From Desulfarculus sp. (GTDB lineage Bacteria; Desulfobacterota; Desulfarculia; Desulfarculales; Desulfarculaceae), in the NCBI GenBank assembly GCA_016218705.1, contig JACRDC010000013.1, positions 1 through 37,034 of the forward strand: DNA of 37,034 bases, read 5' to 3'. This document shows, piece after piece, positions 1 to 37,034 of the stretch. Below the pieces are notes generated by a model. It ran no database searches, was not told the DNA's origin, and was given only the letters and a program-made list of their open reading frames with translations. Made by a program: the position numbers and the translations under genes. The first letter of the stretch is position 1. Every line of letters starts with the position of its first letter.

Positions 1-140
1 TTTGCCCGGCCTCCCGGGCGCTTTCGCGCCCGGCGGGCCATTCCCCGGGGTCCCCAAGCAAACGCAGTTTGCTTGGGGTGGATCCATGGCCCGCATACCA
101 AGTTGCGATCAAACTACTCGTTTGATCGCAACTTGGTATA
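1..140 (+). repeat. Left copy of a ~140-bp three-hairpin element (inverted relative to the right end)
   Basis: Three stem-loops lie in a row. Hairpin A (14-33) has an 8-bp stem CCGGGCGC with loop TTTC. Hairpin B (52-78) has a perfect 12-bp stem with arm CCCCAAGCAAAC and loop GCA, and is enclosed by an outer 9-bp stem pairing 33-41 with 86-94. Hairpin C (95-139) has a perfect 20-bp stem with a 5-nt loop. The reverse complement of the last 139 bases of the window is nearly the same sequence with the same three hairpins. No coding sequence is visible in it. It looks like a REP/MITE-type dispersed palindromic element; no transposase is nearby. Bases 4-19 can also form an alternative GCCCGG/CCGGGC hairpin that competes with hairpin A. 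Confidence 0.85.
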
Positions 141-35732: not shown

Positions 35733-36896
35733 GTGACCATCCGCCGCCGCCTCAAGAAGGCGCCCCGCCGCCAGGGTCCCTACCGGGCCTCGCCAGCCTC
35801 CCGCGCCCTGTTCCAGAACGTCATCGAGGCCATGAGCGACGGCATGATGATTATTGACCGCCAGGGCCACATAAGCGTGGTCAACCAGGCCCTGGGCCGG
35901 ATGCTGGGCCTGGAGCCCCAGGCCATGTTGGGGCGGGGCTGGGCCGAGTTGTTCTTTGATGGGCGCGGCGAAAACGACGCCTTCAACGACGTGGTGCTGG
36001 AGGGGGTCCAGCAACAGGCCTGCCACCAAAACTGCCAGGTGACCTATCACCCGCCCCAAGGCCCGCCCCGGGAGCTTATCGTCACCACCGACCTGCTGCT
36101 GGACCAGACCAGCCAGGACCGCGTGGTCATGGGCATGCTGGCCGTGTTCAAGGACGTCACCGAGATCAAGGCCCTGCACCGCCGCGAGCAGGAGCTTATG
36201 CAGAAGAGCCAGCGCCTGTACCAGGAGAAGCTGGAGGGGCTGGGCCGCCTGGCCCTGGCCGTGGCCCACGAGATCAGGAACCCGGTGATGAGCATCGGGG
36301 GCCTCAGCCTGCGCTTGTTGGGCCAATGCGGCCCGGAGGGGCGGCAGTCCCAGTACCTTGAGCGCATCATTTCCAGCAGCCGCCGCCTGGAGCATATCGT
36401 GGCCCAGGTCAGCGACTACGCCGACCTGCCCACGCCCCGGCCGGCGCCCCTGGAGCTCTTGCCCTGGCTAATGGGCCTGGCCGGGCACTACCGCGGCCGC
36501 GCCCAGGAGCAGGGGGTGCGGCTGGTTGGCCCCCAGGCCACGGCCGGGCTGGAGGGGCTCAAGGCCCCGGCCGACCCCAAGCTGCTGGGCCGGCTCATGG
36601 CGGCGCTGCTGGAGAACGCCCTGGAGGCCATGCCCCAGGGCGGCGAGCTGCGGCTGGACCTGACCCGGCGGGCCGGCCCGGGCCGGGCCGTGATAAGCGT
36701 CTCCGACACGGGCCGGGGCGTTGATCCCGGCGACCTGCCCTATATCTTCGACCCCTTCTTCACCACCAAGGCCGCCGGGGTGGGCATGGGCCTGGCCATG
36801 GCCAAGCGCATCGCCGAGGACCACGACGCCGTGCTGGCCGTGGACAGCGCGCCGGGCCAGGGCGCCACCTTTAGCCTGAGCCTGCCCTTGGAGTAA
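35733..36896 (+). CDS. Soluble PAS-domain sensor histidine kinase
   Basis: A 387-aa cytoplasmic kinase without membrane segments. A PAS domain (about 24-145) starts 'IEAMSDGMMIIDRQGHISVV' and is followed by a short coiled-coil linker. The HisKA H-box 'VAHEIRNPVMSIGG' carries the phospho-acceptor H179. The ATPase domain has N-box N295 ('LLENALEAMPQGG'), G1 'DTGRGVDPGD', F-box 'FDPFFTTK' and G2 'GVGMGLAMAK'. The GTG start has a GGAGG site. The layout resembles NtrB/AtoS/FleS-type kinases that act on sigma-54 activators, so it could govern the flagellar promoters here; no response regulator adjoins it in the window. The 97 bp upstream hold no clear promoter. Its stop codon runs into the right-end repeat. 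Confidence 0.9.
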   Translation: MTIRRRLKKAPRRQGPYRASPASRALFQNVIEAMSDGMMIIDRQGHISVVNQALGRMLGLEPQAMLGRGWAELFFDGRGENDAFNDVVLEGVQQQACHQNCQVTYHPPQGPPRELIVTTDLLLDQTSQDRVVMGMLAVFKDVTEIKALHRREQELMQKSQRLYQEKLEGLGRLALAVAHEIRNPVMSIGGLSLRLLGQCGPEGRQSQYLERIISSSRRLEHIVAQVSDYADLPTPRPAPLELLPWLMGLAGHYRGRAQEQGVRLVGPQATAGLEGLKAPADPKLLGRLMAALLENALEAMPQGGELRLDLTRRAGPGRAVISVSDTGRGVDPGDLPYIFDPFFTTKAAGVGMGLAMAKRIAEDHDAVLAVDSAPGQGATFSLSLPLE

Positions 36897-37034
36897 TACC
36901 AAGTTGCGATCAAACGAATAGTTTGATCGCAAGTTGGTATGCGGGCCAAGAACCACCCCAAAAAAGCCGCGCTTTTTTGGGGACCCCGGTGGATGGCCCG
37001 CCGGGCGCGAAAGCGCCCGGGAGGCCGGGCAAAA
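36896..37034 (-). repeat. Right copy of the ~140-bp three-hairpin element
   Basis: In reverse complement this matches the left end of the window. Hairpin C (36896-36940) has a 20-bp stem with one mismatch. Hairpin B (36956-36982) has a perfect 12-bp stem with arm CCCCAAAAAAGC, enclosed by an 8-bp stem (36941-36948 with 36994-37001). Hairpin A (37001-37020) has 8 bp. It starts within the TAA of the histidine kinase gene, so the element abuts that gene without spacing and could act as its transcript end. Confidence 0.85.

Follow-up and report, generated by a model that had tools for sequence, protein, structure and literature searches.

The matched base changes that distinguish the terminal hairpins of this contig from each other reflect real covariation, and that covariation belongs to a family of REP-like hairpins carried by a MITE. 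Taken as a whole, the observations are best explained by a REP-like family that extends across the genus, travels as a passenger in the MITE, and is read as a fold, an explanation that we regard as reasonably probable. The window analyzed here is the entire contig C28, 37,034 bases of a draft Desulfarculaceae genome (4.2 Mb in 126 contigs; G000 below). Its gene content is mainly a flagellar cluster, and its FlgK shares 95% identity with that of a MAG labeled Desulfarculus sp. and 55% with that of Desulfocarbo indianensis. The genomes compared include a sister genome (G003) and a member of another genus of the same family (G006), and the search for the hairpin pattern covered G000 together with 98 relatives. 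Nothing specific on repeats in Desulfarculus was found in the literature.

The Hairpins at the Two Contig Ends

Both ends of the contig fall within copies of one dispersed repeat, the MITE, and this is the probable reason that the assembly broke off at these points. The two copies are separate, lie in opposite orientation, and are each cut by the contig end; they are not the two ends of one element. In the left copy, the small hairpin of interest, hairpin B, occupies 52-78 (CCCCAAGCAAAC-GCA-GTTTGCTTGGGG, stem type B1) and is preceded on the forward strand by a GGGGT tag (47-51), common to the free-standing hairpins described below, and followed on the same strand by TGG (79-81), a shared border motif. 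Its counterpart in the right copy occupies 36956-36982 (CCCCAAAAAAGC-CGC-GCTTTTTTGGGG, stem type B2). Both have a perfect 12-bp stem, and their arms differ at positions 7 (G/A), 8 (C/A), and 11 (A/G), with each difference matched in the opposite arm, exactly as the sequence-only reading that preceded this analysis had described. Folded as RNA, the left hairpin reaches -19.1 kcal/mol and the right one -16.6 kcal/mol, values equaled by 0 of 200 and 3 of 200 shuffles, respectively, and the left-end region as a whole folds far better than its shuffles.

What these three differences represent is another matter. The sequence-only reading had counted them as three covarying pairs, but B1 and B2 are subfamilies of some age, both numerous in G000 and both present in G003. 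Given that both types occur in the sister species, the three changes amount to one lineage split and not to three local events, and either that split predates these species or there has been exchange between copies.

A Multi-Hairpin MITE with TNA Target Duplications

Queried against its own genome, the left window end yielded about 40 long matches, and one TIR arm gave more than 100 on each strand, since a hairpin contains this arm two times, in inverted orientation. Complete copies, found in contig interiors, comprise hairpin C, an outer stem (GCGGGCC..GGCCCGC), and hairpins A, E, and D. They are non-coding, dispersed over many contigs, 123-326 bp in size (mostly 161-241 bp), and bounded by TACCAA..TTGGTA with imperfect TIRs of ~18 bp (TACCAAGTTGCGATCAAA / TACCAATATGCAATCAAA). 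The 3-bp flanks are identical in 55 of 74 nonredundant full copies, and all of these read TNA (TAA 18, TGA 14, TCA 12, TTA 11); N is spread over the four bases, with a chance match at that position expected in about 26%. By these features, the large repeat is a MITE that duplicates a TNA target.

Read from the left contig end, the truncated copy begins with the remaining arm of hairpin E (1-11), followed by hairpin A (15-32, CGGGCGC-TTTC-GCGCCCG), arm 1 of the outer stem (33-41, GCGGGCCAT), which borders the slot occupied by hairpin B, arm 2 (86-94, ATGGCCCGC), and, on the reverse strand, terminal hairpin C with the TIR TACCAAGTTGCGATCAAA (95-139). The TAA at 139-141 is the target duplication to be expected by the rule from other copies, its partner flank lying beyond the contig end. 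At the right end, the last gene of the window, a histidine kinase-like ORF (35733-36896), ends in a forward-strand TAA at 36894-36896 that is both its stop codon and the TNA duplication of the MITE. Hairpin C follows on the forward strand (36896-36940), with one unpaired change (GCAAG for GCAAC), and then come outer stem arms 1 (36941-36948, GCGGGCCA) and 2 (36994-37001, TGGCCCGC), hairpin A (37002-37019), and the start of hairpin E, which the contig end cuts.

The right end of the window is one instance of an observation that can be made more widely, namely that a gene's stop codon often serves as the TNA target, in which case the duplication restores the stop codon. Of 78 cases, 16 have a stop codon no more than 3 nt from the MITE border, and 14 of the border distances pile up exactly at the duplication.

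In being short, non-coding, intergenic, highly folded, present in about 100 copies, and equipped with TIRs and a target duplication, the element resembles the bacterial MITEs that have been reviewed (PMC10969869). It differs from them in being a chain of separate perfect hairpins whose loops hold further REP-like hairpins, in a target duplication that is often a stop codon, and in that a search for DDE_Tnp_1 genes found no parent transposon. That search found no such gene in G000, itself a draft genome, and no autonomous transposase with the TIRs of the MITE; the DDE_Tnp_1 genes of G002 and G006 were considered as parents and set aside, as they have no convincing TIRs. Two loci of another relative (L283 and L284, G001) carry tandem relatives of the MITE that depart from it in their hairpin D (GGCAAAAAGTACATGGATGTACTTTTTGCC).

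Hairpin B as a Passenger

The MITE carries hairpin B as a passenger and not as an intrinsic part, because many MITE copies have an empty slot, in which the outer stem encloses only a 6-nt loop of ATGGAT or ATGGAC (GCGGGCC-ATGGAT-GGCCCGC). About 24 such copies exist in the own genome and 12 in G003, alongside others that contain one hairpin or two. In some copies the loop of hairpin E likewise contains a second member of the family, this one with an ACAAAGC stem. Across the genus, the stem types that occupy the slot number at least four: AAGCAAAC, as at the left window end, AAAAAAGC, as at the right, AGCCAAC, and AGCCAGGC.

This variety raises the question of how the two window ends came to differ. 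Stem types may have been swapped as whole cassettes, by gene conversion or by re-insertion of other family members into the slot, and not changed pair by pair, an account that we consider plausible while giving it somewhat less than even weight, and that is compatible with the preferred explanation since it addresses only this one difference. The occurrence of B1, B2, AGCCAAC, and AGCCAGGC types in one slot with similar flanks speaks for exchange, as do mosaic flanks, in which a B2 stem is joined to a B1-type right flank, and no stem intermediate between B1 and B2 was seen in any MITE slot. However, matched changes also separate orthologous free-standing sites, and exchange shuffles existing diversity while leaving the origin of different perfect stems unexplained.

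A Hairpin Family across the Genus

Outside the MITE, perfect hairpins share the layout GGGGT-[CCCC-arm-loop-arm-GGGG]-TGG. A strict pattern (GGGGTCCCC-N-GGGGTGG) matched 80 times in G000, 38 in G003, 29 in G002, 14 in G006, and 3 in G001; control patterns gave 0-3 matches per genome (0-1 in G000), and the remaining relatives of the 98 stood at the control level. The hairpins of G006 occur in tandem, some of them inside a GCGGGCC..GGCCCGCC frame that is without the MITE ends. Free-standing copies often form head-to-tail arrays with a period of 37-41 nt and, at about ten or more loci, where genes were called by a simple codon-usage script and not taken from annotation, the arrays start 0-5 nt past a stop codon in the sense of the gene (for example, TAG-CCACCCC.. 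and TAG-AGCACCCC..). Enrichment of TAG at array starts was not significant (8 of 9 versus a background of 59%, p = 0.066).

Comparisons of orthologous sites show both turnover and drift. The end of an ftsY-like gene carries a hairpin in G000 that is absent from the orthologous ends in G001, G002, G003, and G005, and a second locus gives the same picture, which implies that hairpins are gained or lost between species. Where the site is filled in both genomes, contig C15 of G000 and C9 of G003 show two-sided differences (AAAAAATC versus AAAAATCC and AGGAAAGC versus AAAAAAGC), the arms at C10/C43 differ by a one-sided change, and a third site, common to G000, G003, and G001, has mostly kept its stems.

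Covariation in the Family and in the MITE

Among 38 distinct 35-mer stems, counted as sequences and not as events, 97.1% of pair cells hold standard pairs and 60 cells are changed on both sides. The covariation score of 0.355 stands against 0.158 +/- 0.013 after shuffling (0 of 500 shuffles as high) and at most 0.152 for slid structures; the four C-G pairs adjoining the tag are uninformative, as the search pattern fixes them. The covariation check over hairpin copies for which the sequence-only reading had called is thus strongly positive. A second count took 64 MITE-borne hairpins, each scored against the consensus of its own stem type, and found changes in 16 of 1484 stem cells (1.1%), 23 of 205 loop cells (11.2%), and 48 of 384 cells of the 5' linker (12.5%). 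The outcome that would have spoken against the sequence-only reading, unpaired substitutions in the stem at the rate of the loops, is therefore not seen. Because the cells share ancestry and p-values overstate their independence, the Fisher p of 2e-12 for stem versus loop is indicative only.

The claim that the fold and not the sequence is kept holds for the hairpin B family, where covariation bears it out, and applies much less to the MITE in its entirety. MITE hairpins C, D, E, and A show 347 one-sided and 14 two-sided changes in G000, although the latter exceed the 3.9 expected under independence, and in MITE hairpin D stem changes exceed loop changes. Within the stem types of hairpin B, 14 changes are one-sided and 1 is two-sided.

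Likeness to REP Elements and the Search for a Partner

REP elements, with their RAYT (TnpA-REP) transposases, are known as GTAG- and CGTC-tagged families (PMC3733652, PMC8266576). The hairpin B family resembles them in its short, perfectly paired hairpin, which has a G-rich tag immediately 5' of it and C|T at the 3' border, in its many extragenic copies that cluster and lie near gene ends, in its subfamilies with differing stems, and, with its 80 strict matches in G000, in being an extragenic palindrome of 20-40 nt in high copy. Two defining features of REPs are absent: the tag is GGGGT, neither GTAG nor CGTC, and there is no adjoining RAYT gene linked to the same hairpin. Tandem units run head to tail and do not alternate, unlike those of BIMEs. 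The tag is one letter off a GGGGWSAS motif reported for the TIRs of other Y1 genes (PMC3733652, PMC8266576), and a few copies read GGGGTCAC and fit it.

The suggestion that a TnpA-REP (Y1) transposase would be found in this genome was not borne out, as no intact gene of this kind was found in G000, only an IS200-like Y1 remnant (C126), and the remnant was rejected as a source because no GGGGT-type hairpin lies beside it. Sister genomes do possess RAYT-like genes (NF047646 E-values down to 7e-19, yet below the curated cut-off), and those of G003, G005, and G008 are flanked by other hairpins. In G003 the flanking REP is GTGG-CCCGGACAAC-TT-GTTGTCCGGG, and GTGG-tagged matches number 30 in G003, 11 in G000, and 9 in G002, with near-palindromic sites counted on both strands. 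A REP/RAYT system thus exists in the genus, and hairpin B has no link to it: no GGGGT-tagged hairpin was found beside the Y1 genes examined in relatives, and the RAYT-like genes of these relatives, flanked by other REPs or by none, were rejected as its owners. Contig C3 of G006 holds three further RAYT-like Y1 genes within 10 kb of one another (L276, at about 85-95 kb), and no REP is evident next to them.

Why Pairing Is Kept

In light of these observations, hairpin B would be a member of a genus-wide REP-like family seated in the loop of a larger, multi-hairpin MITE. The MITE itself would be mobilized by a DDE transposase, whereas the small hairpin would be recognized as a folded single strand through its end motifs and stem. 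Were recognition to depend on end motifs and stem, the sequence of the arms could drift while pairing stays, and copies with broken stems would be lost or would fail to spread. Consistent with this, the ten-fold deficit of stem changes together with the scarcity of two-sided changes suggests that broken stems are lost; it seems that something reads the fold, or else that spreading is confined to perfect copies. The most likely reader, proposed here tentatively and by analogy, would be an HUH (Y1) enzyme acting in trans, favored by a layout (5' tag, perfect hairpin, and C|T 3' border beside stop codons) that is that of RAYT substrates. The balance of mismatches on the GGGGT strand (23 G-T versus 10 A-C, p = 0.035) leans weakly toward this strand as the folded one. 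Given that it is antisense to the neighboring gene, this argues against a role in mRNA and fits a reader of single-stranded DNA.

Selection at the level of RNA is an alternative that we think unlikely. Here, the hairpins would be 3'-UTR structures that protect or regulate the mRNA end past the stop codon, one of which the MITE picked up. The gene-sense arrays directly after stop codons, the far stronger conservation of stems than of loops, and the covariation across stems would all follow. Covariation of paired positions does not, however, separate RNA from DNA hairpins, and species differ in whether a given stop codon has the hairpin, while MITE copies carry it in any context. The gene-sense strand has 10 G-T and 23 A-C mismatches, the reverse of what RNA wobble predicts, so that this asymmetry, weak in itself (p = 0.035), points in the wrong direction for a sense transcript and was discarded as proof of RNA. 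Likewise, TGG on one strand and ACCCC on the other come directly after the stem, which has no U-tract and hence forms no intrinsic terminator, and an Rfam search of the window gave no match to a curated family at the gathering threshold.

Rather improbable is a REP-like family that has no linked RAYT and spreads as a folded single strand, landing preferentially at stop codons and in the loops of other hairpins such as those of the MITE, its stems drifting because nothing but end motifs and fold is read.

Somewhat more doubtful again is an explanation that dispenses with function. Template switching during replication, a documented mechanism, copies one arm of a hairpin onto the other and produces matched multi-base stem changes in one step and without selection (PMC8794818). 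Among the eight one-pair steps that link perfect stems, five are of the transversion type and lack a G-T intermediate, as this mechanism would have it, and it would also account for the excess of two-sided changes in the MITE hairpins. It leaves unaccounted for a stem rate ten times lower than that of loops and the near absence of two-sided changes within the types of hairpin B: if the roughly 150 missing stem changes had been corrected in this way, about half should appear as two-sided. Since so few do, correction alone is insufficient for the constraint on the stem, though template switching may help to make new stem types.

Finally, chance palindromes or an assembly artefact, which the location of both features at contig ends might suggest, can be rejected as having next to no likelihood, because dozens of copies lie in the interiors of other contigs and in four other genomes where pattern controls give 0-3 matches per genome.

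The family offers dozens of perfect hairpins, a natural series in which the arms differ and the borders stay the same, at both empty and filled orthologous sites. Such a series allows a direct test of an old question, namely whether matched changes in stems arise by selection on the fold, by an enzyme that copies only folded strands, or by template switching. It also presents a case of mobile hairpins lodged in the loops of a second mobile element, where insertions of either sort are found at stop codons.

Further Repeats

Several other repeats were observed in passing. A 42-nt inverted repeat, 86% paired, lies at 202-306 in the window, between the left MITE and a fliW-like gene (GACGGGCGGG..CCCGCCCGTC); it is a different structure, dispersed or terminator-like. 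At three loci in the own genome (L067, L088, and L113), a separate palindromic repeat with the arms ATTGCTTCGTCGC.. and ..CTCGCAATGAC encloses hairpins of the family that are of the AGCGGGC- or AGGCAAGC-type. The AGGCAAGC hairpin also lies in the loop of a composite repeat (GGAGAAAGCCAT..ATGGCTTTCTCC), about 130-220 bp long, that occurs in G000 and G003 (L328, L331, L305, L311, and L317).
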